Below are positions 1 through 18,420 of a stretch of DNA of 45,816 bases, one piece after another. The notes below the pieces were generated by a model. It had not been told where the DNA came from. It searched no databases and saw nothing but the letters and a program-made list of their open reading frames with translations. The position numbers and the translations under genes are program-made. The stretch comes from Caloramator sp. (GTDB lineage: Bacteria > Bacillota > Clostridia > Clostridiales > Caloramatoraceae): the NCBI GenBank assembly GCA_026417075.1, contig JAOADY010000041.1, positions 1 through 45,816 on the forward strand. The letters are read 5' to 3'. Every line of letters starts with the position of its first letter. Within the stretch, counting starts at the first letter, position 1.

Positions 1-408
1 ACCTAATATTGTGTATTCATCCCCTGCATCGTCTATCTTTGTCCTGTCGTTATATTGAATCATCTTACTTGATACAGAGAATATTTTTTCATCTTTTTTT
101 ATTAATGCTAATAAATTTTCAAGCCATCCTTTTTCAACTTCTACATCGTTATTTAATAGTACGACAAATTCGCTGTCTGATGATTTTATTCCCTCATTTA
201 CCGCTTTTGCAAAGCCATAGTTTTTATCAAGCTTTATAAACTCTACATTTTTAAAACATTTTATTATTTTTTGTACATCTTCTTTTGAATTGTTATCGAC
301 AACAATAGTTTTTATATCGTTATAATACTTATAAATAGAATTTAAGGTTTTTTTCAGCAGCTCAATATTATTATAATTTGGTATTATTATAGTAACTATA
401 TTACTCAC
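1..408 (-). CDS. Glycosyltransferase family 2, N-terminal part (runs off the window)
   Basis: Minus-strand reading from GTG at 408 gives VSNIVTIIIPNYNNIELLKKTLNSIYKYYNDIKTIVVDNNS...GFAKAVNEGI...FVVLLNNDVEVEKGWLENL, a classic GT2 (GT-A) N-terminus; overlaps the rmlC 3' end by 8 nt. Confidence 0.85.
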   Translation of the reverse strand, partial: MSNIVTIIIPNYNNIELLKKTLNSIYKYYNDIKTIVVDNNSKEDVQKIIKCFKNVEFIKLDKNYGFAKAVNEGIKSSDSEFVVLLNNDVEVEKGWLENLLALIKKDEKIFSVSSKMIQYNDRTKIDDAGDEYTILG

Positions 409-958
409 CCTCGCAATATTGTTTAAAGCCTGCCCACTTTTTATCCTTTTCAGAAATTATTAAATTATAAACTTTATCTGTCGGCCAGTTAATAGATATA
501 TCCTTATCATTCCATATAATTCCGCCTTCATCTTCAGGATGGTAAAAGTCCGTACATTTATATACAAATTCAGCCTCATCAGATAAAACTAAAAATCCAT
601 GGGCAAAGCCTTCAGGGATATAAAACATTTTTTTGTTTTCTTCGCTTAAGTAAACTCCATACCATTTTCCAAAGGTACTTGAATTTTTTCTTAAATCCAC
701 TGCAACATCAAATACCTCACCCTTTGTAACCCTTACAAGTTTACCCTGGGGATATTTTTTTTGAAAATGAAGCCCTCTTAAAACACCTTTTTTTGATTTT
801 GATTGATTATCTTGAACAAATGTTACATCTATTCCACCGTCTTTAAAATCGTTGTAATTGTAGGTTTCCATGAAATACCCTCTCTCATCGCCAAAGACAG
901 AAGGCTCAATTACAACAAGTCCATCTATTTCTGTTTTTACGAATTTAAACTTACCCAT
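401..958 (-). CDS. rfbC: dTDP-4-dehydrorhamnose 3,5-epimerase
   Basis: IEPSVFGDERGYFMETYN, FVQDNQSKSKKGVLRGLHFQ, FYIPEGFAHGF motifs; ATG at 958 (MGKFKF) is the likely start rather than 1006. Confidence 0.95.
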   Translation of the reverse strand: MGKFKFVKTEIDGLVVIEPSVFGDERGYFMETYNYNDFKDGGIDVTFVQDNQSKSKKGVLRGLHFQKKYPQGKLVRVTKGEVFDVAVDLRKNSSTFGKWYGVYLSEENKKMFYIPEGFAHGFLVLSDEAEFVYKCTDFYHPEDEGGIIWNDKDISINWPTDKVYNLIISEKDKKWAGFKQYCEGE

Positions 959-959
959 T

Positions 960-2018
960 TTAGCATCTTCCTTCATACATCTTTTCATAGTAGTTTTTAT
1001 ATTCACCCGATGTAACCTTGTCCATCCACTGCTTATTATTAAGATACCACTTGATTGTCATAACAATTCCATCTTCAAATTTTGTTTCAGGTTCCCAGCC
1101 TAACTCTTCTTTTATCTTTTTAGGATCAATGCCATACCTTCTATCATGACCTTTCCTGTCTTCAACAAATTTTATTAACTCTTCATTAACAGATGCTTCT
1201 ACATTTTTATTTACAAATTCAATTATAGTTTTAACAATATGAATATTAGTTCTCTCGTTATGCCCTCCTATATTATATACTTCACCTATTCTTCCTTTAC
1301 TTATAACCATATCTATTGCCCTGCAGTGATCTTTAACATAAAGCCAATCCCTAATATTGAGCCCGTCTCCATACACAGGAAGGGGTTTTTTATTTAAGCA
1401 GTTGTTTATCATAAGAGGAATAAGTTTTTCAGGGAACTGGTACGGCCCGTAATTATTGGAACATCTTGTAATATTAACAGGCATTTTATATGTGTCAAAA
1501 TATGCCTTAACCATTAAATCTGCACTTGCCTTGCTTGCAGAATAGGGGCTGTGAGGGTCAAGGGGGGTTGTTTCTGTAAAGTACCCTGTTTTTCCTAAGG
1601 AACCATAAACCTCATCGGTTGAAACCTGCAGAAATTTTTTGCCTTCTTTAAATCCATCTTTTGTTTCCCAATGCTTTTTGGATATATTTAAAAGATTTAA
1701 TGTACCTAAGACATTGGTCTTAACAAATATTTCAGGATCTTCAATGCTCCTGTCAACATGAGATTCTGCTGCAAAATTTACTACATAATCTATATCATAT
1801 TTAACAAATATTTCATCTAGGAGCTTGCTGTCGCATATATCTCCTTGTATAAATTTATAATTTTTATTATCTTCAACTTCTTTAAGGTTTTCTAAATTTC
1901 CTGCATAGGTTAGTTTATCAAGATTTATTATATTTATATCGCTATATTTTTTAAGCATATAGATTATAAAATTAGAGCCTATAAAGCCTGCTCCGCCTGT
2001 AACAAGATAGGTTTTCAT
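960..2018 (-). CDS. rfbB: dTDP-glucose 4,6-dehydratase
   Basis: TGGAGFIGSNF Rossmann motif, YSASKASADL, RCSNNYGPYQFPEKLIPL. Confidence 0.96.
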   Translation of the reverse strand: MKTYLVTGGAGFIGSNFIIYMLKKYSDINIINLDKLTYAGNLENLKEVEDNKNYKFIQGDICDSKLLDEIFVKYDIDYVVNFAAESHVDRSIEDPEIFVKTNVLGTLNLLNISKKHWETKDGFKEGKKFLQVSTDEVYGSLGKTGYFTETTPLDPHSPYSASKASADLMVKAYFDTYKMPVNITRCSNNYGPYQFPEKLIPLMINNCLNKKPLPVYGDGLNIRDWLYVKDHCRAIDMVISKGRIGEVYNIGGHNERTNIHIVKTIIEFVNKNVEASVNEELIKFVEDRKGHDRRYGIDPKKIKEELGWEPETKFEDGIVMTIKWYLNNKQWMDKVTSGEYKNYYEKMYEGRC

Positions 2019-2075
2019 AATTTAGTACCACCCTTTTTATATTTTATTATTATAACATTTTAACCTTAAAATTTC

Positions 2076-3542
2076 TTATAATAAGTAGTAAGATAGCTTT
2101 GTTTTAGTTTTAAATTTATAACATAATTTATACCATTCTAAAATTCTTATTAACTCAAAAGAATTCATTACTTTAAATCGTACAAAGCATTCTCCTTCAA
2201 TACTCGGAATATCAATTTCTATTTTACCATCTTCTTTAATTTTAACTATATTTTGATATATTATTGTATTTTCTTTTACAAATTCTACAAAAATATTAGA
2301 TTCTATATTGCTAATTAAATATATACACATTTTATTATAATTAGATTTCAATAATATTTTGTATTCTAAATATGTATTATAAGGAATATAATCTGTAAAC
2401 TTTAATCTATATCCTTTTTTATTAAAATAATCAAATAAAATCATTTTTTCTATAAACTCTTTATCAGTTATATCAAAAATTACATTAAACTTTTTAAAAT
2501 TGTCAAAATAATTACCAAAATAATATGCTTTTCTTTTAGTAATAATTCTTAATTCATCTGACCAAACTTTAAATTTATCTATTATTTCATTATTTTTATA
2601 AATTAAACTCTTATTTAAAATATCTTTTTCAACTAAATTTTTTTCCAATTGCTTTATTTTATTGTTTTTATCTTCTAAACTGTTATTAATCTTACTTAAT
2701 AAAAAATCTTTTTCTTGTATAATATCTTTCAAGTTTTTTATTTGATTGCTACATTCAACAAATTTATTATGTAATTTTTCATTTACTTCAATTTGTTTAC
2801 TTAATTGTTCTTTTAAAGATAAATTTTCTTCTTCTAGCTTTTTTATTATATTTATTTTACTTTCAATTTTTTGATTTTGTTTTTTAATTTCTAATTCATT
2901 TTTTCGTTTAGTAATATGCTGTGGTTCAAATAAACCATTCTCAATGATTTCTTTAATTTCTGTATTATTTATTTCCTTTTTCACAATTAATAAATGATAC
3001 ATTATTTCATCACATATATCAAATTGATGCCTTCTTAATTTTCTCTGTTCCTCATTCGACATTAATTCATATTCTGGAAAATAAAAAAATTCAATATTAA
3101 TACATCTTATATCTATATTTAAATTACTATTATCGCTACCTCTTAATCCCCAATAAGGTGAATTAGGGAAGAAATATTCTTCATTATCAATAAAATTGTT
3201 TGTTTTAATTTTCGTATAAAACCTAAATGTATGTTCATTAAAAACAATTTTATGATATGGATTAGACATATTAAGTAAAGTATTAGAATATGGAGCAACT
3301 ATACATACGAGTGCTTTATGTTTACAAACTCTATAAATTTCTTTCATTATATTATCTAAATTATCTAAATGTTCAAGCGAATGTATGGCAAGTATCAAAT
3401 CTACACTATTATCTTCTAATGGAATTCCTTTGTTTAAATCTGCTACAATATCTACACCATCTAACTCATATCTATCAATACCTATGAACCCTGGTGTTTT
3501 AGTTTGTCCACAACCTAATTCTACTTTTATATAATTACTCAT
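2076..3542 (-). CDS. SAM-dependent methyltransferase (type 11-like) with long coiled coil and C-terminal domain
   Basis: VELGCGQTKTPGFIGIDRYELDGVDIVADLNKGIPLEDNSVDLILAIHSLEHL; then about 120 residues of K/E/N/L-rich heptad-like sequence; ATG at 3542 with upstream GGGATGA. Confidence 0.8.
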   Translation of the reverse strand: MSNYIKVELGCGQTKTPGFIGIDRYELDGVDIVADLNKGIPLEDNSVDLILAIHSLEHLDNLDNIMKEIYRVCKHKALVCIVAPYSNTLLNMSNPYHKIVFNEHTFRFYTKIKTNNFIDNEEYFFPNSPYWGLRGSDNSNLNIDIRCINIEFFYFPEYELMSNEEQRKLRRHQFDICDEIMYHLLIVKKEINNTEIKEIIENGLFEPQHITKRKNELEIKKQNQKIESKINIIKKLEEENLSLKEQLSKQIEVNEKLHNKFVECSNQIKNLKDIIQEKDFLLSKINNSLEDKNNKIKQLEKNLVEKDILNKSLIYKNNEIIDKFKVWSDELRIITKRKAYYFGNYFDNFKKFNVIFDITDKEFIEKMILFDYFNKKGYRLKFTDYIPYNTYLEYKILLKSNYNKMCIYLISNIESNIFVEFVKENTIIYQNIVKIKEDGKIEIDIPSIEGECFVRFKVMNSFELIRILEWYKLCYKFKTKTKLSYYLL

Positions 3543-3558
3543 ATTTATTTCATCCCTT

Positions 3559-5247
3559 TTATTCAATTATACAAAATAATTTTTTATTAACTAATTTATT
3601 TAGAATTTTATTTGAAGTTACTTTATATTCATAGATAGAAATTTTATTATCAGATAAATAGAATAATTCAAATTCAAATATAAAATATTTTCCTTTAACA
3701 TATTTTATAGTATCAAAATTAAAAGTAACTAATTGATTATCATCTATATGTTCAAGATTTAATATTGTACTTCTAATTATATAATTACTATCTTTCGTTT
3801 TTATATTTAATTTAATTAACCCTTTACACCTTTTAAAATGAGTTCCTATAATAATACTTATTTTACTAATCTCATCGTTATAAATTAAAATTTTATACTT
3901 CTTATTATTTCTTATTCTTCTTGATGGTATAAGATTAGAAAAATCAATATCATTATTTATATTTTCTTTTTCATCCTCAGCATTGTTTTTATTAATTTTA
4001 TGTTCTTCTTTAATTTCATTTTTATTAGAATAATAATTATGTCTAATAAAAAAATTCAACAAATCATATAAAACCAACTTCTCACTGCTATATCCAGAAA
4101 ATTTTTGATAAACATCTTTTATTAAATTTATAAACAAATCCTTTGCCCCGTTAGGAGAAAACCTTTTTTTATATATATCATATCCTTTATTCCCTAATTG
4201 TTTTGCCTTATCTTGGTTATTTAATAAATACTCCATTTTTTCAGCCAACTGATGTTTATCTCCGACATCAATTAAAAAACCGCAAACATTATCAACAATT
4301 ATTTCTTCTGGTCCACCAGATTTTGCAGAAATAACAGGTTTTTTGTGTGCCATAGCTTCAATAATTGTCATCCCAAATGACTCTATATAACTTGGCTGTA
4401 TTAATGCTAAGCATTTATTATATACATTTGAAATATCATTTGTTCTATCATTAAACAAAATATAATTATTTAATTCTTTTTGTGTTACAAATTTTTTCAA
4501 GTTTATTTTTTCTTGTCCATCTCCAAATAAGTAAACTTTAAAATTATAATTACTTTTCTTTAATATTTCGGCTGCTTCAATTAGAGTATTAATACCTTTA
4601 TTATGATCAAAAGTATTTAAACAAACAAATATATTTTCATTGATATAACTTTTTGTTTCGTAATCTGTGCTTGGCTCATATGTCCAATTATATATAGTAA
4701 TAAATTTTTCTTTATTTTTATAATTTAAGAAAAATCCTTCATAATAATTCTTTGTCCAATTAGAACAAAATACAACCTTATCACTTAATTCTAACACTAT
4801 CCTATCAATTAATAGCCTAAAATATGAATTCGCATTAATCATATATGAATCTAAAATTCCATGAACCCAAGTTATAACCGGCAAATTTAATTCTACAGCA
4901 GCAAGTAAGTATATAATATTAGTTAAAGTATTATTTATAATTATATCAATATTATTTTCTAAAATTTTTTCTTTAACCAATTTTAAGTTATCTATATTAT
5001 TATTACAAAATTCTTTAAAAACATCTCGGTTAAAGTCCACATACACATACCACTTACTTGCTGGAATTATTTCATAATCCAATTTATTTTTAATTGCTAA
5101 TTCAATTAATGAGCCATCTCCATTTTGTGGTATAAACAATATTGGCTTAATCATTTCTTCATTTTTTAGCAATATTGCTAAATTTAATAACATCTTTTCA
5201 GCTCCAGTTGCTGAGGATGAATGAGACATTAATCCCACATTAATCAT
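3559..5247 (-). CDS. Glycosyltransferase family 4-type with C-terminal extension
   Basis: LPVITWVHGI, LNTFDHNKGINTLIEAAEILK, ESFGMTIIEAMAHKKPVISAKSGGPEEIIVDNVCGFLI (GT-B donor-site motif). Confidence 0.88.
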   Translation of the reverse strand: MINVGLMSHSSSATGAEKMLLNLAILLKNEEMIKPILFIPQNGDGSLIELAIKNKLDYEIIPASKWYVYVDFNRDVFKEFCNNNIDNLKLVKEKILENNIDIIINNTLTNIIYLLAAVELNLPVITWVHGILDSYMINANSYFRLLIDRIVLELSDKVVFCSNWTKNYYEGFFLNYKNKEKFITIYNWTYEPSTDYETKSYINENIFVCLNTFDHNKGINTLIEAAEILKKSNYNFKVYLFGDGQEKINLKKFVTQKELNNYILFNDRTNDISNVYNKCLALIQPSYIESFGMTIIEAMAHKKPVISAKSGGPEEIIVDNVCGFLIDVGDKHQLAEKMEYLLNNQDKAKQLGNKGYDIYKKRFSPNGAKDLFINLIKDVYQKFSGYSSEKLVLYDLLNFFIRHNYYSNKNEIKEEHKINKNNAEDEKENINNDIDFSNLIPSRRIRNNKKYKILIYNDEISKISIIIGTHFKRCKGLIKLNIKTKDSNYIIRSTILNLEHIDDNQLVTFNFDTIKYVKGKYFIFEFELFYLSDNKISIYEYKVTSNKILNKLVNKKLFCIIE

Positions 5248-5262
5248 TATTAACTCTCCTAA

Positions 5263-7110
5263 TCAATTTAAAATTATATTATTTAATAAACTAATGAAAT
5301 CTTCTATGACCTTATCAGTAGAAAAATTATTTAATACATCATTTTTACTATTTAAAACTATTTTTTGAGATAATTTAGGGTTTTCTATTACCATACATAT
5401 CTTTTGTAACCATTCATTTAAAACATTATTTTTAACAAGCAATCCATTAATTTGATCCTTAACATAATAACTATAAGGATAAACATCTGAATATATCCCT
5501 ACACTTCCAACTGCAGAAAATTCCAGATATTTATTAGGACACTTCGACATAGATGTTCTTTTTTTATCTAAAGGTGCAATTAAAGCTAATGGTTTTATAG
5601 ATGATATGATTTTACAATATTCAAAATAAGACCTATAATTAATACTAACTATTTTTTTTTCGTCAAATAATTTTCTTTGTTCTTCAGTTATTATCCCAAA
5701 TAATAATACTTTCAAATTATTAAAATATTTTGTGGCTTCTGATAGTGCTAAAAATGCACTATTATCGTATCTTAAAGAGCCTGTGTATCCTATAATAACA
5801 TTATCTCCTAATAATTTATCATAATATTGTTTATATGAAGGTTTATAAAATTCTAAATTTATATTAACAGGAAATTTATAAACTTTGTTTGTATATTTTA
5901 AAATGTCTTGTTGTAAATAATCATTATATACCATAACGCCATCAACACTACTAATAGCATAAATAAAATTATCATAATCTGGCTTTCCTGGTTTAAATAT
6001 TTCTCCATAATCATCCGGCCAATCTTTCCCTACCCATAACCAATTATCATCTATCATATACATGGTTTTTATTGATTTATCTTTGCAATATTCTATTAGA
6101 TTCAAAATATTATTACTACGTGCCCTTGAAAAAATAACTAAATCTGCATTCTTTAAATCTGAAGTTGCAGCCATAAAATCAAAAACAACCTTATATGTTC
6201 CAAATCCTCTTCCGTACAATTTATCAAAAAAATTATAGAAACATAATTGATTATGTATATATTCCCAATAACCACAGACTATCACTATATTGTATAGTTT
6301 ATTATAATTTGTTAGTTGTTCCTTAAAACTGCATCCGATTTTTTTATTAATAGTATTTTTATAATCATCGCTAATATCATTTAAAAAATCTTCTTCTCTA
6401 TTTTTTGTATTATCATAATTATAATTTATATTTCTAATAATAAATCTATGTATTAAATCCTTTGAGAAATTATAATGATAGTTATACGGATAATTAACAA
6501 AATTATATTCATTTATTGTATTTTTAGAATGAATTTCAAACAATATATAATTTCTTGTTAATCTAAGTATAAAATCCCAATCAGAATACTTTTGTAATAG
6601 TTTACTTTCATCAAATCCACCAATTAGATCAAAAGCTGTCTTTCTTATTAATAAATCATTTAATTCATATACTTTTAAACATTGATTCCATCCATATTGT
6701 AAAGTCTCTGGAGGATAAAAAGATAAGCTGTCATGTTTTTCTCTTTTTATGTAATAAACATCTTTTCTATCATTCTTATTATATAACATTGTCTTCACTG
6801 CATTAAAATCTTCTGCTACAAAATCACATCCTGGCCAAATAAAAATTAAATATTCATTTTTTGCTTCTTGTATGCCTTTGTTAAATAATTTTGAAGGCAA
6901 ATTAGTTTCCTCATCCATAAAAAAAATATTACAATTATTAAATCGTATCTTTAAACTTTGAACAATTGGTGCTCTAAAAAAAATTTTATTATCTAAAACA
7001 ACTATTAATTCAATTTCATCTCTTATTTTTTCTAATTCATTTAAAAGTGTTGAAAAACTATTTTCGATTAGTTCATATCTTCCAAAACAGCTTAATATAA
7101 CAGACAGCAT
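5263..7110 (-). CDS. Probable two-domain glycosyltransferase (GT2-like N-terminal half + GT-B-like C-terminal half)
   Basis: MLSVILSCFGRYELIENSFSTLLNEL..LIVVLDN at N-terminus; GYTGSLRYDN...SKCPNKYLEFSAVGSVGIYSDVYPY...GLLVKN at C-terminus. Confidence 0.75.
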   Translation of the reverse strand: MLSVILSCFGRYELIENSFSTLLNELEKIRDEIELIVVLDNKIFFRAPIVQSLKIRFNNCNIFFMDEETNLPSKLFNKGIQEAKNEYLIFIWPGCDFVAEDFNAVKTMLYNKNDRKDVYYIKREKHDSLSFYPPETLQYGWNQCLKVYELNDLLIRKTAFDLIGGFDESKLLQKYSDWDFILRLTRNYILFEIHSKNTINEYNFVNYPYNYHYNFSKDLIHRFIIRNINYNYDNTKNREEDFLNDISDDYKNTINKKIGCSFKEQLTNYNKLYNIVIVCGYWEYIHNQLCFYNFFDKLYGRGFGTYKVVFDFMAATSDLKNADLVIFSRARSNNILNLIEYCKDKSIKTMYMIDDNWLWVGKDWPDDYGEIFKPGKPDYDNFIYAISSVDGVMVYNDYLQQDILKYTNKVYKFPVNINLEFYKPSYKQYYDKLLGDNVIIGYTGSLRYDNSAFLALSEATKYFNNLKVLLFGIITEEQRKLFDEKKIVSINYRSYFEYCKIISSIKPLALIAPLDKKRTSMSKCPNKYLEFSAVGSVGIYSDVYPYSYYVKDQINGLLVKNNVLNEWLQKICMVIENPKLSQKIVLNSKNDVLNNFSTDKVIEDFISLLNNIILN

Positions 7111-7121
7111 ATCTTACCCCC

Positions 7122-7859: not shown

Positions 7860-7870
7860 AATTAATTCTC

Positions 7871-8662
7871 CTAAAGTTTAAAAGTTATTTTTCTACCTAC
7901 TTTTTCTATTATATAAATTGAAAGTAACATCGAAAAAATAATTATAAAAATACTTATAGCCCATATATTGTTATTTAAAATTTTTTCTCCTAATATGCTT
8001 CTTCTTATTACTTCAAGTAAATAATATAATGGATTCAATAAATATACCCATTCATAATTTTTGCTCGCTAAAATTTTAGGTGGATATATTATTGGCGTAA
8101 TATAAAAAAGAGCTTGCAATAATAAAGACTGTAAAGGCGCAAAATCTCTTATATAAACATTAATAACTGAAACTAATGTAGCCCACATGCAACCAAAAAT
8201 TAACATAACTAACAATGCTGGTATTAAAGTAATCATATTCAAACTTATCTTTTCTGGTTTAATAAAAATATAAACCAAAAAAAAAGCAATTATTGAAAAT
8301 AACAAATTAACAAAAGATACTAATGCAATTCTTATTGGGAATATTTCAATTGGTGTTTGAGTCTGTTTAATATATCCTTGAGCAATAATTAATGAAGTTG
8401 TACCCCCTTCAGCACAACTACTTAAATAAATCCAAGGAATAAGCCCAGAAAACAAAAAAGGTATAAACTCTTTCATCGGTTGTCCGAATACGATTGAATA
8501 AACTGAACCTATAATTAAAACTAATCCTAAAGGAGTAAGAAAAGTCCAGGCAAAACCTAATATCGAATTTCTATACTTATTTTTTAAATCCTGCTTTACT
8601 AGATTAATTAATATATATCGACCTTTATAAACATTATTAAAATATTTTTTTAAATAATTCAA
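7871..8662 (-). CDS. Polysaccharide ABC exporter permease (Wzm/TagG type, ABC2 family)
   Basis: LVKQDLKNKYRNSILGFAWTFLTPLGLVLIIGSVYSIVFG, multiple TM segments, LNPLYYLLEVIRRSIL. Confidence 0.92.
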   Translation of the reverse strand: MNYLKKYFNNVYKGRYILINLVKQDLKNKYRNSILGFAWTFLTPLGLVLIIGSVYSIVFGQPMKEFIPFLFSGLIPWIYLSSCAEGGTTSLIIAQGYIKQTQTPIEIFPIRIALVSFVNLLFSIIAFFLVYIFIKPEKISLNMITLIPALLVMLIFGCMWATLVSVINVYIRDFAPLQSLLLQALFYITPIIYPPKILASKNYEWVYLLNPLYYLLEVIRRSILGEKILNNNIWAISIFIIIFSMLLSIYIIEKVGRKITFKL

Positions 8663-8677
8663 AGTTTATCAGCTCCA

Positions 8678-9862
8678 CTAATAAATTTTTATTTTATCTA
8701 ATATTTTAAAAAATATATATGAAAAAGTTTTAAATTTTTCTCTTTTAATTAAAGAAATTAATTTAAAGAGAAAATAGTTTTTATTATTTTTATTCCCAAT
8801 TCCTTTTATTTCTTTAATTGAGCATTGTGGTGCCTTATAATTAACAACTTCAGGTATTGAGCTTATTAATTGTTCTGAAATTTTTAAAATATTGAAGTTA
8901 CTTTTTATGGTTTCTTTTGCTTTTAATGATATGTTCTTAATATTCGAAGGATTTTCGATTAAATATGATATATTATTTACCCAACTTTCTTTGGTATTAT
9001 TAGATAATAAACCATTTTCATTATGTTTAACAACAAATATATATGGTTCTACATTTGAATATATGCCTGCTATGCCAATTGAACTATATTCTAAAAATTT
9101 ATTGAAATATTTACATGAATTAAATTCTGTATTTTCTAATGGTGCTAATGCTATATCCCATTTTCTATTAATAATCATCTGCTTATATAAATAATAATCA
9201 TTCGTATATGGTATATAATTTAATTTATATTTATCTATTAATTTGGGTCTAGCACCAAAAAATTCAAATTTGACTCTCTCTTTATATTTCGCTAAAATTT
9301 CATTAATAACACCATCAAGTATTTTATCTAATAATTCACTATGATCAATACCACCAGCAAACCCTATAACAATACTATTCCTATTTAATTGCTTACAATT
9401 ATCAATATTCTCCATTACTTCGTAAGGAGCATTAATAACTGCTGTCTTCAAAAAATATTTCTTATATTTTTTCTCAATATTATGATTGGTTGTCCATAAA
9501 CAATTACATTCTTTCATAATATTTATAATTAAATTAATAATTTCTTTATTTCTATAGTAAACTGAAGATTTTACAATGGTAGGAACATTTAACAAATCAT
9601 CATCTAAAAAATAAATAAGATATTTATTTAATTTTTTACATTGTTTAATTATATCATACTCTAATTTTTCCGAACCTCTAATACAAATAACTACATCCGC
9701 TTCAGCTACATCTATTTTTGTTATATTTAATGTTTCTTTGAATTTAAACTGTATTCTATTTGTTGAATCTAAATATTTAAGAACATTAATAACTCCTATC
9801 TTCGCTGAAGGTATTTCTTTTAAGCAGAAAGCTAATACTCTTGTCTTAAACATTTTTTTCAC
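8678..9862 (-). CDS. Glycosyltransferase (GT-B-like)
   Basis: IGFAGGIDHSELLDKIL..., ALAPLENTEFNSCKYFNKFLEYSSIGIAGIYSNVEPY similar to the C-terminal half of the 5263..7110 protein. Confidence 0.75.
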   Translation of the reverse strand: MKKMFKTRVLAFCLKEIPSAKIGVINVLKYLDSTNRIQFKFKETLNITKIDVAEADVVICIRGSEKLEYDIIKQCKKLNKYLIYFLDDDLLNVPTIVKSSVYYRNKEIINLIINIMKECNCLWTTNHNIEKKYKKYFLKTAVINAPYEVMENIDNCKQLNRNSIVIGFAGGIDHSELLDKILDGVINEILAKYKERVKFEFFGARPKLIDKYKLNYIPYTNDYYLYKQMIINRKWDIALAPLENTEFNSCKYFNKFLEYSSIGIAGIYSNVEPYIFVVKHNENGLLSNNTKESWVNNISYLIENPSNIKNISLKAKETIKSNFNILKISEQLISSIPEVVNYKAPQCSIKEIKGIGNKNNKNYFLFKLISLIKREKFKTFSYIFFKILDKIKIY

Positions 9863-10364
9863 TTTCCTTAGAAAATTTCATTATATAAAGATTTTCTTCT
9901 TCTAAATCTTTTTCAATAATAAATCCAACTGATTTATATATATTTATTGCATAAATATTATCCTTAAATACAGACAAATATATACTATTTAAATTTAAAA
10001 CATTAAAACCAAATTGGCAAAGAGAATTTGTAACTCTTCTACCTATTCCTAATCCTCTAACATGAATATCACCTATTATTATTCTACCGAACTCAGCTCT
10101 TTTTATTGTATAGTCGATATTGTATAAAGCAACTGTTCCAATAGGCTTTTCATTATATTCTATTATAAACATAATATCGTTATCTTTTTGTAAATATTTT
10201 TCATACCATATTATTTGCTGTTCTTTTGTAATTATTTGCTGATTAATGAAACATTTTCTTATTTCATCATTATTTCTCCAATTTCTGATTAGTTCTAAAT
10301 GTTCTTTAGTTATTGGTAATAATTTTAGATTTTCTTGTATTTTAAAAAAATAATTATGATTCAT
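9846..10364 (-). CDS. GNAT-family N-acetyltransferase (sugar-amine acetyltransferase-like)
   Basis: LELIRNWRNNDEIRKCF..., GRIIIGDIHVRGLGIGRRVTNSLCQFGFNVLNLNSIYLSVFKDNIYAINIYKSVGF; ATG 10364 preceded by GGAGGT. Confidence 0.82.
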   Translation of the reverse strand: MNHNYFFKIQENLKLLPITKEHLELIRNWRNNDEIRKCFINQQIITKEQQIIWYEKYLQKDNDIMFIIEYNEKPIGTVALYNIDYTIKRAEFGRIIIGDIHVRGLGIGRRVTNSLCQFGFNVLNLNSIYLSVFKDNIYAINIYKSVGFIIEKDLEEENLYIMKFSKESEKNV

Positions 10365-10388
10365 TAATACCTCCAATTTTATATATAT

Positions 10389-11519
10389 TTATTTTGCATA
10401 TTCTATAATTTTCCTTGAAATATAATCAATATCATTATTTCTTAGTCTTAGATGCATTGGCAATGATATGATTCTTTCACTTAATCTGTGTGCATTTGGG
10501 CAAGTTCCCTTCGCATAAGAATACATTTCATATTCTGTATTATCACGATAATGAACACCTGGATAGATTTCACTTTCATTTAATGCAAGTAACAATTCAT
10601 CTCTATTTTCAACTTCAATTATATAAAGATGTCTTGATGATTCACAGCCTTCTGCAACAGGAATTGGTTTTATCTTATCTGAATAAGGTTTAAAATTCTC
10701 ATCATACCATTTTGCCAACTGTCTTCTATATGCATTATCTTGATCTAAATATTTTAATTGAACTAACCCGATAGCTGCCATAATGGAATTGCCATGATCT
10801 TTATATCCCAAATATTCAACATCATATTTCCATTTATAAGCCCCTTTATCGTTGGAACGAGCATAAGTATCTTTATTTATGCCTAACCATGTAAGCTTCC
10901 TACACAGTTCATCGTCTTCTTTTTCTTTAAAACATATCATACCTGAGTCAGCTGTTGGTAAATTTTTTACCGCCTGAAATGAATATACTACAACATCTGC
11001 ATCCTTTCCTACAACATGCCCATTATATCTTGTTCCAGACATATGAGCAGCATCAAGTATTAGTTTTAAATCATATTTCTTACATAATTCAATAATTTTA
11101 TATAATTGTCCAGTATTTCCGCCTAGTCCAACAAACATTATTGCCTTTGTTTTGTTTGTAATTTTTTTCTCAACATCTATAGGATCTAAGCATAAAAATT
11201 CATCTACATCAGCAAAAACTACTTTAAGATTTTCATACATAATTGCATGATTTGTTGAAACAAATGTTAATGGCGTTGATATGATCTCATCTCCATCCTG
11301 CCAATTATTTTTCATTTTTAAAATTTTAACTGCTAAATGTAACCCCGCTGTAGCTGAATTTAAAAAATGAGCATTATTTAATCCTGTATATTCCTTCCAT
11401 CTTTCTTCAAATTCAACAGTTTTAAAACCTAAGCCTGTCCACCCTTTTTCTAAGCATACTCTTATTTCTTCTAAACATTCATCTACTCGAAAAGTAGGAA
11501 CAAATAATTGAATTGCCAT
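10389..11519 (-). CDS. DegT/DnrJ/EryC1 family PLP-dependent sugar aminotransferase
   Basis: FLNSATAGLHLAVKIL, LILDAAHMSGTRYNG, SFQAVKNLPTADSGMI (PLP lysine region). Confidence 0.92.
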   Translation of the reverse strand: MAIQLFVPTFRVDECLEEIRVCLEKGWTGLGFKTVEFEERWKEYTGLNNAHFLNSATAGLHLAVKILKMKNNWQDGDEIISTPLTFVSTNHAIMYENLKVVFADVDEFLCLDPIDVEKKITNKTKAIMFVGLGGNTGQLYKIIELCKKYDLKLILDAAHMSGTRYNGHVVGKDADVVVYSFQAVKNLPTADSGMICFKEKEDDELCRKLTWLGINKDTYARSNDKGAYKWKYDVEYLGYKDHGNSIMAAIGLVQLKYLDQDNAYRRQLAKWYDENFKPYSDKIKPIPVAEGCESSRHLYIIEVENRDELLLALNESEIYPGVHYRDNTEYEMYSYAKGTCPNAHRLSERIISLPMHLRLRNNDIDYISRKIIEYAK

Positions 11520-11543
11520 AATATTTCTCTCCTTTAGTTTTTA

Positions 11544-12392
11544 TTATTTTATTTCTCTTATAACCTCTTCTAATGCATCTCCCCAATAATTCATATCATC
11601 TCCAATAGTACATCTTAGCATCATGTTATCTAATACTGAAAACTTTGGCCTGTTTGCTTTATTAATAAAACATTTTGAATCTATTGGTATAATATTGCAA
11701 TTTATATTCATTAATTCAATAGTTCTTTTGGCTAACTCATACCAACTACATTGTCCTTTACCACTACAATGATATAATCCATAATAATCTGTTCCAACTA
11801 ATTTTATTACATGTTTAGCTAAATCACGAGCACTTGTAGGACTTCCAATCTGATCATTAACAACCTTTAATTCATTATTATTTATTGATAGATTAATTAT
11901 TCTTTTTACAAAGTTGTTTCCATATTTGCTAAACATCCATGATGTTCTAAAAATAAAGTGTTTATCATTATAGTTTTTAATATATTCTTCACTAAGAACT
12001 TTTGTTTTACCATATATATTTATAGGTAAAGGATAATCAATCTCTTTATATGGAATATTGTTGTTACCATCAAATACATAGTCAGTAGAAAAATGAATTA
12101 TTTTTGCGTTAATTTTTTTAGTTATAATTGCAATGTTTTTAGGACCAATTGAATTTACTTTAAAGGCATAATCGATATTTTCCTCACAATCATCAACTTT
12201 ATTATATGCTGCACAATTTATAACAATATTGGGTTTAATTTCAATTAAGCATTTATTTACCTCATCATAATTAATAATATTCAAATCTTTTGATGTGAAA
12301 GGAATTATTTCATATTTATTATAATTTTGCTTAAATATATCCACTAGTTCCCTTCCTAATTGTCCATTAGCACCTGTTATAAGTATTTTCAA
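11544..12392 (-). CDS. rfbD: dTDP-4-dehydrorhamnose reductase
   Basis: MKILITGANGQLGRELV, INCAAYNKVDDCE, FSTDYVFDG, YGKTKVLSEEYI, FRTSWMFS. Confidence 0.94.
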   Translation of the reverse strand: MKILITGANGQLGRELVDIFKQNYNKYEIIPFTSKDLNIINYDEVNKCLIEIKPNIVINCAAYNKVDDCEENIDYAFKVNSIGPKNIAIITKKINAKIIHFSTDYVFDGNNNIPYKEIDYPLPINIYGKTKVLSEEYIKNYNDKHFIFRTSWMFSKYGNNFVKRIINLSINNNELKVVNDQIGSPTSARDLAKHVIKLVGTDYYGLYHCSGKGQCSWYELAKRTIELMNINCNIIPIDSKCFINKANRPKFSVLDNMMLRCTIGDDMNYWGDALEEVIREIK

Positions 12393-12409
12393 AAAACCAC
12401 CCCTAATGA

Positions 12410-13321
12410 TTATTTATCAGATGCTGCTACCTCACTAATTTCATTATTATTGTACCTATCATCTAATAATTGCATTAAGTATTTACCATAATTTGTTTTA
12501 AAATATTGTTGTGCAATTAATATTAATTGCTCACTTGTAATCCACCCATTTCTATATGCTATCTCTTCAATAGATGCTATATATGCCCCCTGCCTTTTTT
12601 GTACGGCTGCAACGAAGTTTGAAGCGTCAAGCATTGAATCGTGTGTACCTGTATCAAGCCAAGCCATTCCTCTTCCAAGCAGGTTTACTTTCAGCGTTCC
12701 TTCCTGCATATAAAGCTTATTAAGATCTGTTATTTCAAGTTCTCCTCTCTTTGAGGGCTTTAGGCTCTTTGCTTTTTCAGATACGGTATTGTCATAAAAA
12801 TACAGTCCTGGCACAGCATAATTTGACTTGGGATTTTCTGGTTTTTCCTCTATTGATAATACTTTTCCCTTATCATCAAACTCAACAACGCCATAAGCTC
12901 TTGGGTCGCTTACATAATAGCCGAATATAACTGCACCTTTTTTTATTGAAGCAGCTTCTTTTAAGTTTTGAGTAAAATTATGCCCCCAGAAGATATTATC
13001 TCCAAGAATCATAGCAACATTATCATTGCCAATAAAGTCTTGTCCAATAATAAATGCTTCTGCAAGACCGTTTGGTTTTTCCTGTACTGCATAAGTAAAG
13101 CTCATTCCAAGTTTTTGCCCGTCTTCAAGAAGTTCTCTGAAAACAGGCACATCCCTTTTTGTTGATATAATAAGTATATCTCTTATCCCTGCAAGCATTA
13201 AAACAGAAAGAGGATAATATATCATAGGCTTGTCATATATAGGCACAATCTGTTTTGATATTGATTTTGTAATTGGATATAACCTTGTCCCAGAACCTCC
13301 CGCAAGTATTATTCCCTTCAT
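12410..13321 (-). CDS. rfbA: Glucose-1-phosphate thymidylyltransferase
   Basis: [68 protein letters not shown]. Confidence 0.97.
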
Positions 13322-13322
13322 T

Positions 13323-15128
13323 TTAAACCTCCATTCCCTTTCTCTCCTCTATCTTAGCGTTTACTGCAAACCCTGCTCCAAGAAGTACCCAGAAAATCGG
13401 GGCGACAGAAATTACACTGTCGTTAAAAAGTCCTGCAGCAAGGTAAGATATAAGACCTAAAAATATTGAAACTCCTATAATCTCATAATTCGTGTCAAGC
13501 TTAGCTCTAATATATATTTTAAAGCACTGCATAATATAAAGCAATAATATTGCAATTAGTGATATCAAGGAAATAAAGCCTGTATTGACCAAAGTTTGAA
13601 GATACATATTATGCGCCTTGTCAACGAGCATATAGGCATCTCCATAGGCATTTATCTTTCCTACAACATCGTTTTGAGGAAAGTAGATTGCAAAATTATC
13701 AGGTCCGTAGCCAAAAAGCGGCCTCTTTTTTATAAGCGGAAGAGTTCTTGACCAGATATAACCCCTTGCAGAACCTAAGGACTCTTTGCCTTCAAACCCT
13801 ATCTTTTCTATATTTGTTATATCATAATATTCGTTTTCTTTCCTAAGTATTTTATATTTATCATTTACTTTTACAATATTTAGTTTAGCAGTGCCTATCT
13901 GAAATTGAACTACAGGTTTATTGTTGTAAAGACCAAAATATATCATTTTATCCTTATACCTGTTATCTTCAATATCTAATTTGCCATTGGTTCCATCTAT
14001 TGTCCAGTCTAATATATTATTCTTTTCATCAAACATTTTAAGTCCGTTATCATTTAACTCTACATAAAGAGTAATATTATTATACGCTACTTTCAGCCTG
14101 TTTCCTTCGCATTTTAAATCTTTTAAAAGATGATTGTCTTTATCCTTTTCTGAAACAAGTTTCTGGGTATCAGTAAAAAGAGTACCAATTTTATTAAACA
14201 AATAATTATTCCACATTTTGTTTGCTGCAAATATTAGTACAACTGAGCCAATAAATATAGCAGCGAATATCTTGTAGTGCTTTATTATATAGCCTCTGAA
14301 AATAACCATTAAAATAATTAGGGAAAAGGCTATACCAACAATACCTGCTCTTGAATGGCAGGCAATTAAATCGAAGAAAAATAAAACCGATAATGCTGAA
14401 AAGACTACCTTTAAAACCTTATTTTTATTTAACATGGCAAGGCTGATTGTCATCATAAATAGTATAGCAGTAAAACTTCCCATATAATTCGTATGATATA
14501 ATGTTCCATAAACTGCTCTTTCTCCTAAGGTAAATTTAAGCCCCTGCCTCATTCCTGCATATTGTGGCGGTACGATTAAATCTTTACCCAAAGGCGATGC
14601 AAAAAAGTCCATATTGAAATATTGAAAAAAGCCTATAATACCTATAATAACTGATGAGAAATATAGAGATTTTATTATTATATCTAATGATTCATAGGAA
14701 TTGATAAGATTATAAGTCAAAAGCATAATAAGAATATAGCCTATAAGTACAAATAAACCTTCATATCTATCGGGAAATCCAAAGAAGGCTATTTGTCCAT
14801 TTTCTGATCTTAAGCTTGAAATAGTTATAGATAATATATATATAAATGAAAATATATAAAGAAGTTTATTGTTTTTAAATTTAAAACCTTTATTAAAAAA
14901 ATTAATCATAATTGCAGCTAATACAAAAAATAAAAAAACTCTGGATTTATTATATGAAAAAAAGTCATAATTGACATTGCTTGTCCAAAAATTTGCTATA
15001 TAACTGTCCAATTCAATAACTTTTAATTTTACTATAAGGGGAACAATTGCTACAACTAATGCTATTGGAATTATAAACATTTTATTTTCTTTAATATATT
15101 TTGACATATTCTTTTTATTTTTTCCCAC
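13323..15128 (-). CDS. O-antigen ligase/polymerase family membrane protein (Wzy/WaaL superfamily)
   Basis: Many TM segments, [34 protein letters not shown] and [15 protein letters not shown] motif typical of Wzy_C; large hydrophilic insertion between TM blocks. Confidence 0.85.
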
Positions 15129-15332
15129 ATTATCACCTCAAGTCAATATTTTATCAAAACTGCTCCCCACTTAGCAAGTGTATAATTATACCTGACTTTA
15201 AATCTAATGGCTTTTTTATTATATTATCAACTTTAATCTACATTCTTTAACATACTTTAATAAAAGACAGGCATTTTTATAAAATACCCGCCCCAATAAT
15301 TGACAAAGAGCCTCAAAAAATCCAAAATAAAA

Positions 15333-15374
15333 TGCCGCCCAGCGGCAAGTTTGTCACTTGTCCTCTGGGTGGCA
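15333..15374 (-). terminator. Putative intrinsic terminator of the S-layer-like gene
   Basis: Inverted repeat tgccgcccag...ctgggtggca with inner caag/cttg pairs, followed on the minus strand by a T-rich stretch. Confidence 0.75.
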
Positions 15375-15392
15375 CTGTTAGTGTTTTAAATC

Positions 15393-18317
15393 TTATTTTA
15401 CTATAACTTTTACTGTTGCTGTCTTACCATCAACTGTAATAGCTGTAATTGTAATTTCATCTCCAGCTACTGAACTTGTTACAGTAAGAACTCCTGAATT
15501 ATTAATTGAATATGCTCCACCAGCATATCCTGATTCTCCTAAAGATTTACCAGCTGCATCTTTTGCAGTTAATACATAATAAACTGGTTTAACTGCACTG
15601 CATGCAACTCCATACTGATCTTTTACTTCAAAGTATACTGATGCTCTATCATCTGTTGAATTATATCTTGCATGTGCTGAAACAACTTTACCATTCATAG
15701 CAATAGCTTGTGTTGTTGTTATTACAGCTACATTATCTTTAAATACATCATATTGTCCGCTAATAGCTTTTACTGCTATTGAACTACCAACTGGTACTTC
15801 TTTTGTTAATTTTACATTCTTAAGAACAGTAGTAATTCCATCTGCTCCATTTATTGTTGCTACTATTGTAGCATTTTCTTCTGTTACACCAGGTGCAAAT
15901 GTTCCATTTGCATATACCTTGCCAGAAGCACTTGTTAAATCAACCTTAGCATTTGTTGAATGTAAGTTAATTAGATCTGTAGATTTTAATGCTACCTTAT
16001 CTCCATTTGCAGTCTTACCATATACTTCAATATCTACTGCATAAGCCTTTTCTTCTAATGTTGCTGCACTATAAGTTGTATTTGTTGTATAAATTTTATC
16101 TGCTGTATCAATTACATAGCTTGCTATATTTGATTTTGATACTGTTTCTGCAACAAATTCAAAAGCACTTGTTCCAACTACAGTTCCATTGTTATTTAAT
16201 TTTGCAGTAATAGTTGATGAACCAACTGCAACACCTGATAATCTTAATCCTGCAACGTTAACTTTTGTTGTATCAGATGAAACTACATCAATAGTCCAAC
16301 CTGTTGGTAATGAAGTCATATCTCTTTCATATTGGTCTTTTATTACAAAATCGGTGTTTGAAAGTGTAGAAGTCGCACCAACTGTCATCTTTGTAACAGC
16401 GTCTTTTGAAAGACCTGCTATTCTTGTTGGAACCTTTGCAGGATTAAGTTTTACTGTTATTGTTGATACTTTATTATTTGCAATTGCTGTAACCATAACT
16501 ATATCATTAGCTGCAGCGCCTGCACCAGTTGATAACTTAATTCTTGCTGTTCCATCTATTGGGTTCTTTTCTAATTGAATTGGATATTTTGTTGTATTAG
16601 TAGTTGATAATGTTACATTGCCATACAATTGTGAATATTTAGTTATTGCATTTCCATACTGATCAACTGCAGTAAATGGTATATATAAATCTTCACCTAA
16701 TATATATAAATCTGATGGTGTCTGTAATGTAAATGTTTCAAGTGCAATTGCTTTTTCAACAACAATACTTGCAACTGCTGAATCACCAGTAGCCTTTGAA
16801 ACTACTGTTATAGTATATGTTCCTGCTATTGTTGGGACAGCTACTAATTTTAATTTTGCAGGTTCAGTTGAAGTTGCTGAAACCCACTGAACTTGAAGTG
16901 TTATTCCTGCAGGAGTTACTACTAAATAATCATTACTTAATTGAGTAGCTGATTTTATAGGATTACCATATTGGTCAACTGCATTTACATCAAATGCAAA
17001 AATATCTGTTGATAAATCTGTATTTGTTCTTAATACCTTATTATCTTTGTTCTTTAATGCACCTAATTGTATTTTGCCTGCAGCTGATGGTAAAGCAACT
17101 TTAAGAGTCTTAGTTCCAACTGTTCCAGTTACAGGATCAACCATGGAAACTACAACAGGTGTATCCTTAGCAGGTGATGAAGACCAATTTAAAGTTATTG
17201 TTGTTCCGGAAATTGTATAACTGTTTGCTGATGTTGTTGTTGTCAATCCTGAGGATAATGCAGTTGTTGCATCCTGACCATACTGATCAGTTACTTTGAA
17301 TTCTACTGTAGCTGCATTAGCACCAGGACCTATTAAGATTGCATAATCCCCTAATATTTCAATCTTTGCTACTTTTCTGTTTTCATACTTAACTGTTCCT
17401 TTAACTTCTGAATCAAAACCTTTTACATTAACAGTATATTCTCCTGCTGCAAATGAAACAAATCCTTCTAATGTTGCTTCTGTTTTAGCATCATTCCAAG
17501 TAACAGATTTAATATTTGTTGTTATTGTTCCAAATTTTACTTCAAAGGTTGCTTTTGCTGTATCAACTGCTTTATTGAATTTTACAAGCATTTTATTAGC
17601 AGCTATCGCACTTACTGATTCAACCTTAAGTGCAACTGCCTTTACAACTACCTTTACAGTTGCCTTTAATGTTGTTCCTTCTACTGTACCATTTACAGTA
17701 TATTCGCCAGCTTTAGTTGTATCAACTGTATCCCACTTAACTGCAACTTCTTTTTCTGTTCCATCGCTCATTTTAGCTTTCACAGTTTCTGGGAGATTAA
17801 CTTTTTGACCTTCATTAACTGTTACATCTGCTAATGAAGCGAATTCTTTTATTTCTGCATTAGCTTCTTCTTTAGCCTTTACAACGAATCTTCCAGTGTT
17901 AACATATTTAGCTGTTGAAGCTTTAGCTCCTTTAGCTTTAACACCTACAACGATTTCATATGTTCCTGGTTCTGTTGCATAGAATACATCGATTGTGAAT
18001 GTTGATGTTCCTACGCAAACTGGTTTGTAGAAGTAGCTGTCCTTTGCGTATGCTGGATAAAGCTCCTTAACTACACCTACGCCTACCTTCCAAAGGAATG
18101 CCCTGTATTGAACGATTCCCTTATAAGGTGAAGCATTGAATTTAACAAGTACTCTGTCGCCAACCTTATATTCAGCGTTTGGTTTAGCAACTAAATTGAT
18201 TTTTGTTGGTCCTGCTGGCGCTTTCTTTGCAGCGTTTGCAGGTACATAGCTGAGCACTGTAAATACTGTGAATAAAGCAACTAATACAGTGCTGAGCACT
18301 TTCTTGGCTTTTGCCAT
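15393..18317 (-). CDS. Secreted S-layer-like protein with tandem bacterial Ig-like domains
   Basis: Signal peptide MAKAKKVLSTVLVALFTVFTVLSYVPANA; Big_4-like DVTVNEGQKVNLPETVKAKMSDGTEKEVAVKWDTVDTTKAGEYTVNGTVEG; KMLVKFNKAVD module; five DQYG/DQYE repeat motifs; Ala/Thr/Val/Lys-rich. Confidence 0.8.
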   Translation of the reverse strand: MAKAKKVLSTVLVALFTVFTVLSYVPANAAKKAPAGPTKINLVAKPNAEYKVGDRVLVKFNASPYKGIVQYRAFLWKVGVGVVKELYPAYAKDSYFYKPVCVGTSTFTIDVFYATEPGTYEIVVGVKAKGAKASTAKYVNTGRFVVKAKEEANAEIKEFASLADVTVNEGQKVNLPETVKAKMSDGTEKEVAVKWDTVDTTKAGEYTVNGTVEGTTLKATVKVVVKAVALKVESVSAIAANKMLVKFNKAVDTAKATFEVKFGTITTNIKSVTWNDAKTEATLEGFVSFAAGEYTVNVKGFDSEVKGTVKYENRKVAKIEILGDYAILIGPGANAATVEFKVTDQYGQDATTALSSGLTTTTSANSYTISGTTITLNWSSSPAKDTPVVVSMVDPVTGTVGTKTLKVALPSAAGKIQLGALKNKDNKVLRTNTDLSTDIFAFDVNAVDQYGNPIKSATQLSNDYLVVTPAGITLQVQWVSATSTEPAKLKLVAVPTIAGTYTITVVSKATGDSAVASIVVEKAIALETFTLQTPSDLYILGEDLYIPFTAVDQYGNAITKYSQLYGNVTLSTTNTTKYPIQLEKNPIDGTARIKLSTGAGAAANDIVMVTAIANNKVSTITVKLNPAKVPTRIAGLSKDAVTKMTVGATSTLSNTDFVIKDQYERDMTSLPTGWTIDVVSSDTTKVNVAGLRLSGVAVGSSTITAKLNNNGTVVGTSAFEFVAETVSKSNIASYVIDTADKIYTTNTTYSAATLEEKAYAVDIEVYGKTANGDKVALKSTDLINLHSTNAKVDLTSASGKVYANGTFAPGVTEENATIVATINGADGITTVLKNVKLTKEVPVGSSIAVKAISGQYDVFKDNVAVITTTQAIAMNGKVVSAHARYNSTDDRASVYFEVKDQYGVACSAVKPVYYVLTAKDAAGKSLGESGYAGGAYSINNSGVLTVTSSVAGDEITITAITVDGKTATVKVIVK

Positions 18318-18420
18318 AGTTTTTCTCCTCCTCTCGAATTTTAAAAAATTTTGTTTTAATTTATATAGATGAATAAATCATCTGCGAAGTTAGTTAATTT
18401 TGGTAATATACCTAGTAAAC

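Follow-up and report, generated by a model that had tools for sequence, protein, structure and literature searches.

The window analysed here, the whole stretch of 45,816 nucleotides from the thermophilic clostridium Caloramator sp. (contig JAOADY010000041.1), carries at its left end a run of 15 genes that all lie on the minus strand (Table 1). Pfam and NCBIfam profile searches bore out the gene list of a preliminary description of this DNA in full, positions and strand included. G+C content is 20-26% in the core glycan genes and rises to 30-37% in the majority of the flank genes, a low-G+C centre of the kind also described for slg clusters (PMC2943079). Because the left edge of the window is the end of the contig (C122), the GT2 gene is cut there and nothing further left can be read in this genome. 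Upstream of the S-layer gene, a gene for a 62-aa ferredoxin (18924..19112) lies within what appears to be a single intergenic gap of 860 bp.

Table 1 Features of the S-layer and glycan gene region, with the matches on which each assignment rests
Feature	Position	Strand	Evidence
GT2 glycosyltransferase, cut by contig end	1..408	-	PF00535 94 bits
rmlC, dTDP-4-dehydrorhamnose 3,5-epimerase	401..1006	-	TIGR01221 274 bits, cut-off 156
rmlB, dTDP-glucose 4,6-dehydratase	960..2018	-	TIGR01181 501 bits, cut-off 365
Methyltransferase, K/E-rich middle and C-terminal domain	2076..3566	-	PF08241; composition
GT4 glycosyltransferase with C-terminal extension	3559..5247	-	PF00534 136 bits
Two-domain glycosyltransferase (GT2 + GT4-like)	5263..7110	-	PF00535 N-terminal; C-terminal part weakly matches GT structure 8dvw
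Wzt, ABC exporter ATPase (ABC_tran), 245 aa	7122..7859	-	PF00005; NF050108 256 bits, below cut-off
Wzm, ABC exporter permease (ABC2_membrane)	7871..8662	-	PF01061; galactan export Wzm model 128 bits, below cut-off
GT4-like glycosyltransferase	8678..9862	-	weak PF13692/PF00534
GNAT N-acyltransferase	9846..10376	-	PF13302, PF00583
DegT/PLP sugar aminotransferase	10389..11519	-	PF01041 265 bits; nearest NCBIfam PseC/ArnB, below cut-offs
rmlD, dTDP-4-dehydrorhamnose reductase	11544..12392	-	TIGR01214 291 bits, cut-off 224
rmlA, glucose-1-phosphate thymidylyltransferase	12410..13321	-	TIGR01207 484 bits, cut-off 361
Wzy_C membrane protein (predicted ligase), 601 aa	13323..15128	-	Pfam Wzy_C 54 bits, cut-off 31.7
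Hairpin resembling an intrinsic terminator, separating the S-layer and ligase genes	15333..15347	-	
S-layer-like secreted protein, 974 aa	15393..18317	-	one Pfam Ig domain (Big_4), signal-peptide-like N-terminus
Leader and ribosome-binding site GAGAGGAGGAG of S-layer gene	18318..18405	-	near-identical in three species

The 974-aa protein has a composition typical of S-layer proteins, and orthologues occupy the same place in Caloramator quimbayensis, of the same genus, and in a further comparison genome, G002. Its N-terminal module (~1-240) is kept in the genus while the multi-Ig C-terminal region diverges rapidly. Used as a profile, the protein matched the S-layer protein fragment 4uid (E=0.0012), and the best bacterial matches found by Foldseek for its all-beta, multi-Ig model were SbsC (4uic, 4uj6) and Sap (6qx4, 6hhu). 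Since this model is of moderate quality (pLDDT 63), we relied only on the contrast in identity, which was 18-19% to SbsC/Sap and ~10% to generic Ig chains. No SLH or CWB2 domain was detected in the protein and one SLH protein is encoded elsewhere in the same genome, so that the 974-aa protein is a likely candidate for the lattice protein. An SbsC-like helical anchor was considered for the N-terminus of the G013 S-layer protein and dropped, the PDB having returned no match by sequence. Of the genes compared, the S-layer gene has the smallest effective number of codons (32.0), yet one glycosyltransferase gene is close behind at 32.5, and codon bias is therefore not taken to prove high expression. 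The terminator that had been proposed between this gene and the ligase gene was located as a terminator-like hairpin.

For the 601-aa Wzy_C protein, searched singly or as a profile, the PDB held no real sequence match, which made a fold comparison necessary. Its AF2 model (pLDDT 92.4) had WaaL (7tpg, TM 0.57 on target) as sole significant match (E < 0.001). Across 81 homologues R455, D477, D503, K504, H506, N569 and D570 are invariant and R461 is conserved too, so that the protein combines the fold of the WaaL superfamily with the conserved Arg and His residues of Wzy_C. Of these, R455 and H506 are candidate catalytic residues; the correspondence of the Arg and His to E. coli R288/H338 was drawn by motif, not by superposition. 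Unlike the shorter WaaL, the protein carries a beta-domain of ~100 residues, inserted at ~337-436 and presumably extracellular. Pfam Wzy_C and the WaaL fold together supply the Wzy_C protein expected of an slg cluster, and it is predicted to be an oligosaccharide:protein O-transferase, that is, to have O-oligosaccharyltransferase activity. The preliminary description had proposed it as the transferase, which the WaaL fold, the invariant Arg/His and its surface-protein neighbours support as a prediction.

With regard to the sugar genes, RmlA, RmlB, RmlC and RmlD all score above their NCBIfam equivalog cut-offs, giving the locus the NDP-sugar genes of an slg cluster, and Wzm/Wzt give it the corresponding ABC exporter. 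The product of the DegT enzyme is probably a 4-amino-4,6-dideoxy sugar, for which we infer the C4 position, and the GNAT protein would act on this amino sugar. At 245 aa, Wzt is too short to include a C-terminal carbohydrate-binding domain. A WsaF-type identity was considered for the two-domain glycosyltransferase and abandoned for want of a match. The same applies to a WbdD-like capping protein: WbdD was absent from the PDB matches of the methyltransferase and the heptad signal was weak, so that chain capping by this enzyme stays a guess.

Comparison within the genus separates the parts of the locus that stay from those that change. In C. quimbayensis the flank is found at the same place together with the S-layer gene (43% identity over 971 aa) and the ligase (64%), but the sugars are encoded by another cassette (manC/gmd/rmd, with a different Wzm/Wzt pair). 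The far end of this intact cluster is formed by the gene for a WbaP-type phosphoglycosyl transferase (493 aa, Bac_transf + CoA_binding_3). Such an initiator had been anticipated beyond the left end of the window; it is absent within the window, where the contig ends. The Caloramator sp. genome has a WbaP homologue, 89% identical to that of C. quimbayensis, at the edge of contig C25, which is not placeable next to the window. In G002 the flank and the S-layer gene are present and the ligase and sugar cassette are both absent. Judged by these sequences, the cassette between ligase and left flank swaps among species and the ligase and S-layer N-terminal module stay.

Beyond the genus, the ligase as single-protein query had no match in the named genomes; family members were found by an alignment-based scan of genomes, in 26 of 399 sampled from the phylum and 46 of 393 from the class (~6-12%). 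In a controlled comparison, large secreted proteins made up 37 of 257 ORFs in ligase regions vs 12 of 321 in control regions. CWB2 occurred in 12 of these 37 neighbours, SLH in five and Cu_amine_oxidN1 in four, so that up to 21 of the 37 carry CWB2, SLH or Cu-amine-oxidase-N domains, and none is listed among the 12 control-region proteins. In four of 20 genomes a type IV pilus operon encloses the ligase gene, which lies between prepilin genes, and the family is also represented in a cluster that encodes Wzx, Wzz and a separate Wzy-like protein of its own. PglL/TfpO-type O-oligosaccharyltransferases and WaaL share with the family a Wzy_C core with conserved Arg and His, and the PglL/TfpO gene often adjoins that of its acceptor, a pilin (PMC3643930, PMC12645811). 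In contrast to the PglL/TfpO type, PglL_A, Wzy_C_2 and TPR domains were found in none of 63 family members, and because PglL_A and Wzy_C_2 are lacking we did not file the family as PglL.

Taken together, the stretch most likely encodes an S-layer protein beside the enzymes for building, exporting and attaching a rhamnose-containing glycan. An slg-type S-layer O-glycosylation locus, as proposed in the preliminary description, is the best explanation and in our judgement a probable one, supported by gene content, WaaL fold, S-layer homology, genus comparison and the neighbourhood test; glycosylation itself is a prediction. A WbaP-type enzyme encoded outside the window, as the C. quimbayensis locus suggests, would prime undecaprenyl phosphate. 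The glycosyltransferases would extend the lipid-linked chain with dTDP-L-rhamnose, whose pathway the four rml genes show, and probably with an N-acylated 4-amino-4,6-dideoxy sugar, to which DegT and GNAT point; the methyltransferase may cap it. Wzm/Wzt would export the finished lipid-linked glycan, and outside the membrane the WaaL-fold protein would move it onto hydroxyl side chains of the S-layer protein. Several points count against this explanation: the left end of the locus is missing in this genome and the WbaP homologue lies on another contig, the presumed acceptor has neither SLH nor CWB2, and Wzt is without the domain with which capped chains are bound in the classical form of such export.

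Many Gram-positive S-layers are known to bind a secondary cell-wall polymer, and the cluster could instead make such a non-covalent anchor, the Wzy_C protein attaching it to wall or lipid; teichoic-acid-type polymers also use ABC export, and the proximity of the S-layer gene would fit. We consider this improbable. In Gram-positive bacteria the attachment of wall polymers is usually the work of LCP enzymes, and the dedicated LCP ligase that would have spoken for such a cluster does not occur in the intact C. quimbayensis locus, the only match in the Caloramator sp. genome being on another contig (C107). Moreover, the ligase family also sits between prepilin genes, and the S-layer gene persists in G002 without the cluster, so that there the polymer would not be needed for anchoring. 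A role for the Wzy_C protein as a conventional chain polymerase, or in making capsule or exopolysaccharide, seems to us very improbable: polymerases share the Wzy_C domain and there is a weak TIGR04370 match (23.5 bits, cut-off 40), but Wzm/Wzt export requires no outside polymerase, WaaL is the only significant fold match, and the family occurs with both export modes (ABC and Wzx), in company with another, Wzy-like protein, and in pilus operons that have no sugar genes close by.

The acceptor itself is presumed. The earlier choice of the 974-aa protein is well supported by genomic context, its gene adjoining that of the ligase. The ligase may nonetheless glycosylate other surface or secreted proteins and not mainly this neighbour. 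In C. quimbayensis a second Ig-repeat, S-layer-like secreted protein (246622..249687) directly adjoins the ligase, and a 76% identical homologue lies on contig C21 of the Caloramator sp. genome; pilus-linked members are likewise evidence that neighbours of other kinds occur in this family, and some PglL-class enzymes modify many proteins (PMC12645811). As the direct neighbour in the window is the S-layer gene, we regard a different main acceptor as unlikely.

The S-layer O-glycosylation locus proposed here is of a kind already described in Geobacillus, Paenibacillus and C. difficile SLCT-11, and to call it a possibly undescribed system was an overstatement. C. difficile SLCT-11 (Ox247; PMC6254364) is closest by lineage and the closest studied parallel: its ~24-kb cluster near the S-layer gene has an initiating transferase, glycosyltransferases, an ABC exporter, four rml genes and the ligase orf19; the S-layer protein bears a rhamnose-rich O-glycan, proven at Thr-38 of SlpA, and this glycan is gone from the S-layer when either the initiator (orf2) or the ligase (orf19) is mutated. 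The glycan is proven there, whereas the Caloramator locus is known from genes; and, in the parts of PMC6254364 on which we draw, that cluster is described without mention of amino-sugar genes (DegT, GNAT). The slg cluster of Geobacillus stearothermophilus NRS 2004/3a (WsaA-P, rmlABCD, Wzm/Wzt, SgsE) shares with the window rml genes, Wzm/Wzt, multidomain glycosyltransferases, the low-GC centre and a Wzy_C O-OTase (WsaB), with a nearby S-layer gene that is transcribed separately there (PMC2943079); in its fold, the S-layer protein of the window is similar to SbsC of G. stearothermophilus. The two loci differ in that WsaB has a TPR partner (WsaA), none of which was seen in the window, and in that the window has the ligase and rmlA/D first and rmlB/C last, a DegT/GNAT sugar and a Wzt without extra domain (PMC2943079). 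Paenibacillus alvei CCM 2051 follows the same pathway logic, with a WbaP-type initiator (WsfP) and a Wzy_C O-OTase (WsfB), but WsfB contains a TPR motif and is encoded far from its target (PMC2943079), while the ligase of the window has the S-layer gene as its neighbour and TPR was not found.

What appears to be new, and uncharacterised, is a subfamily of Wzy_C proteins that is found across the Bacillota and has a presumably extracellular beta-domain; WsaB, WsfB and Orf19 were compared with it by description. Evenly balanced, in our view, is whether it forms a distinct family of protein O-glycan ligases, marked by the beta-domain, that would act on S-layer proteins with different kinds of anchor (CWB2, SLH, Cu-amine-oxidase-N, Ig-repeat) as well as on type IV pilins in Halanaerobium-type genomes, with interchangeable sugar cassettes. 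Among Gram-positive bacteria, S-layer O-glycosylation is understood in only a few, and the enzyme responsible for the transfer has hardly been characterised. The family, often beside S-layer or pilin genes, offers a genomic marker for which Bacillota decorate which surface protein, and its thermophilic members could yield stable enzymes for glycoconjugate work. The natural cassette swap with the ligase retained, seen against C. quimbayensis, makes donor tolerance testable.

The locus is of an already known kind, and any novelty may lie in its ligase subfamily, which carries a beta-domain and is found in both S-layer and pilus settings. All genes named in the preliminary description were recovered on the minus strand from position 18317 down to 1, where the contig ends and the leftmost gene (GT2) is cut. 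On sequence evidence, they cover the making of dTDP-L-rhamnose and ABC export, and they include genes for a WaaL-fold ligase and for an S-layer-type protein beside it. The four rml genes (rmlA, rmlB, rmlC and rmlD) each exceed their curated equivalog cut-offs, and the aminotransferase belongs to the DegT family (265 bits), its nearest models, PseC and ArnB, scoring below cut-off. As no FdtA/QdtA-type 3,4-ketoisomerase was recognised among the genes seen (such a gene could still lie in the missing left part), amination would more likely take place at C4. Wzt has only 245 aa, which leaves no room for the C-terminal carbohydrate-binding domain found in capped-chain exporters. The core genes have a G+C content of 20-26% and most flank genes one of 30-37%, in agreement with the low-GC centre known from S-layer glycosylation (slg) clusters (PMC2943079).

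Coordinates of features in the window and in compared locus sequences
Sequence	Feature	Position	Strand	Remark
Window	Ligase gene	13323..15128	-	601 aa
Window	Terminator-like hairpin	15347..15333		in the gap separating the S-layer and ligase genes
Window	S-layer protein gene	15393..18317	-	974 aa
Window	Ferredoxin gene	18924..19112	-	62 aa; upstream of S-layer gene; stretch kept in three species
Window	Terminator of ferredoxin gene	18925..18910		
Window	DUF7922 protein gene	22125..23261	-	long charged central region; in housekeeping flank; conserved within genus (76% and 66% identity)
L024	S-layer gene	607-3624		compared with L049
L049	S-layer gene	103-3018		compared with L024
L072	Ligase homologue among secreted proteins	5518-17106		Candidatus Frackibacter; CxxCH haem motifs
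L149	S41 peptidase, PDZ + Big_5	4145-5767		left flank of the locus, or near the ligase in G018
L043	S41 peptidase, PDZ + Big_5	5050-6723		left flank of the locus, or near the ligase in G018

In the mechanism we propose, WbaP would initiate a glycan holding an N-acylated 4-amino sugar, a methyl group may cap the chain, and the ligase would transfer it onto the S-layer protein. The nearest experimental parallel is Clostridioides difficile Ox247, where a gene cluster of the same make-up makes a rhamnose-rich glycan on SlpA that is lost in mutants of orf2 (initiator) and orf19 (ligase) (PMC6254364). In the older model systems, transfer is assigned by prediction to WsaB (Geobacillus) and WsfB (Paenibacillus), both of which have Wzy_C (PMC2943079).

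Wzy_C is the only Pfam domain of the ligase. Structurally, its AlphaFold2 model (63 homologues; mean pLDDT 92.4, pTM 0.92) has many membrane helices and an inserted all-beta domain at about residues 337-436, and in fold comparison its sole PDB match at E < 0.001 was the WaaL O-antigen ligase 7tpg (E 4e-4, probability 1.00, TM 0.57 on target). Across 81 homologues, R455, D477, D503, K504, H506, N569 and D570 are invariant and R461 and R260 nearly so; matched by motif rather than by superposition, the conserved Arg and His probably correspond to functional residues of WaaL and PglL (R288, H338 and R215 in E. coli; PMC3643930). Because PglL_A, Wzy_C_2 and TPR were found in none of the 63 family members scanned, all of which carry Wzy_C, the ligase was not filed as a PglL. 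Members of the subfamily turned up in 46 of the 393 class-level genomes (E up to 1e-60) and in 26 of the 399 phylum-level ones (E up to 1e-40), and no description of the subfamily was found in the literature searched, which lay mostly outside subscription titles.

The acceptor candidate, the secreted 974-aa protein, has one Ig domain in Pfam and a typical composition (T+S 19%, 2 Cys). A profile of four orthologues matched the S-layer protein fragment 4uid (E = 0.0012), and the top fold matches of its moderate-quality model (pLDDT 63) include SbsC (4uic, 4uj6) and the Bacillus anthracis Sap assembly domain (6qx4, 6hhu), at 18-19% identity versus about 10% for generic Ig chains. The roughly 90 nt that precede the gene start, which include a strong ribosome-binding site, are almost unchanged across three species. 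We infer that this protein forms the lattice; elsewhere in the genome, contig C30 encodes one protein with an SLH domain (711 aa, DUF4901/PepSY), which has little resemblance to a lattice protein.

The window's genome (2.35 Mb in 167 contigs, of which C122, at 45,816 bases, is the window) is 86% complete, and the nearest genome carrying the ligase is that of Caloramator quimbayensis, from the same genus. There, the right flank is as in the window from metG to the gene at 19181 (72-97% identity), the ligase is 64% and the S-layer protein 43% (over 971 aa) identical, and the sugar cassette differs: it comprises manC, gmd, a gene for an rmd-like reductase, a different Wzm, a Wzt of greater length and GTs, and it closes some 30 kb away with a WbaP-type transferase (493 aa). 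A related genome, G002, shares the flank and the S-layer gene (76% in the N-terminal part), and ligase and sugar genes are absent from the corresponding place. The cassette is thus optional as well as exchangeable. Contig C25 of the window's genome carries, at its edge, a WbaP homologue with 89% identity to that of C. quimbayensis. The genes that form the left flank in C. quimbayensis have their counterparts on contigs C21 and C148, and C21 also has a further S-layer-like gene, with 76% identity to the one adjoining the C. quimbayensis ligase. The intact C. quimbayensis locus holds no LCP ligase, and the single LCP match in the window's genome is on contig C107.

A ligase-alignment scan gave 305 relatives in named genomes, of which 80 loci were fetched (up to 10 kb each side): Wzm/Wzt occurred in 23, at least two rml genes in 18, a phosphoglycosyl transferase in 27, and a large secreted protein within three genes of the ligase in 37. 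Large secreted proteins made up 18% of neighbours at one to three genes versus 7% at six to eight (77/419 vs 16/231; Fisher p = 4e-5, only indicative as the loci are related). Domain scanning of 41 proteins (40 neighbours and the window's own) found SLH in 11, Cu_amine_oxidN1 in 11 and CWB2 in five. In a controlled repeat, not fully independent since several genomes were already in the first set, ligase regions from 20 genomes were compared with 19 control regions from 14 of them, about 50 kb or more away and often hundreds of kb. By a simple signal-sequence rule, large secreted ORFs numbered 37/257 in ligase regions versus 12/321 in controls; the 37 included CWB2 (12), SLH (5) and Cu_amine_oxidN1 (4), more than one domain per protein being possible, and none of these three appears in the family listing of the 12 control proteins, mostly enzymes and signalling proteins.

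Four of the 20 genomes, belonging to two families, carry the ligase within a type IV pilus operon (PilB, PilT, PilC, PilD), an arrangement seen in none of the 19 control regions, and in Halanaerobium two prepilin genes with the N_methyl motif flank it. Type IV pilins are classical acceptors of TfpO/PglL-type transferases, whose genes often adjoin pilin genes (PMC3643930). In another genome, G022, the cluster with the ligase also encodes a Wzx-type flippase, Wzz and a weakly matching Wzy_C protein distinct from the ligase. Among the listed ORFs of the C. quimbayensis locus, neither a flippase nor a second polymerase was recognised. Together, the surface-protein neighbours, the pilus operons and the G022 gene set speak for a surface-protein ligase and against a polymerase. 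The pilus-operon homologues (loci L123, L127, L133, L182 and L184-L186) are candidate pilin O-glycosyltransferases in Halanaerobium-type genomes.

Residues 1-240 of the S-layer protein are 82-86% identical to C. quimbayensis and most of the remainder 20-50%, far below the flank genes; the latter is perhaps an exposed variable region. A module at residues ~30-150, with no Pfam match, recurs N-terminally in a number of further secreted proteins (loci L028, L030, L032-L035 and L040; genome G007 has six matches or more) and is a candidate surface-anchoring or adhesion module. The S-layer genes of C. quimbayensis and of G013, from another genus of the same family, share 86% nucleotide identity over 2.35 kb in their C-terminal part and have unrelated N-terminal modules (~residues 30-230), suggesting a mosaic gene with a module swapped between genera. 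The S41 peptidase, which is conserved in the left flank of the locus and has a homologue close to the ligase of genome G018, is possibly an S-layer processing or quality-control protease. In Candidatus Frackibacter, the secreted proteins around the ligase homologue carry CxxCH haem motifs, and MtrC/MtrF-like and cytochrome c7 domains occur in one set of neighbours; these are possibly glycosylated extracellular cytochromes.
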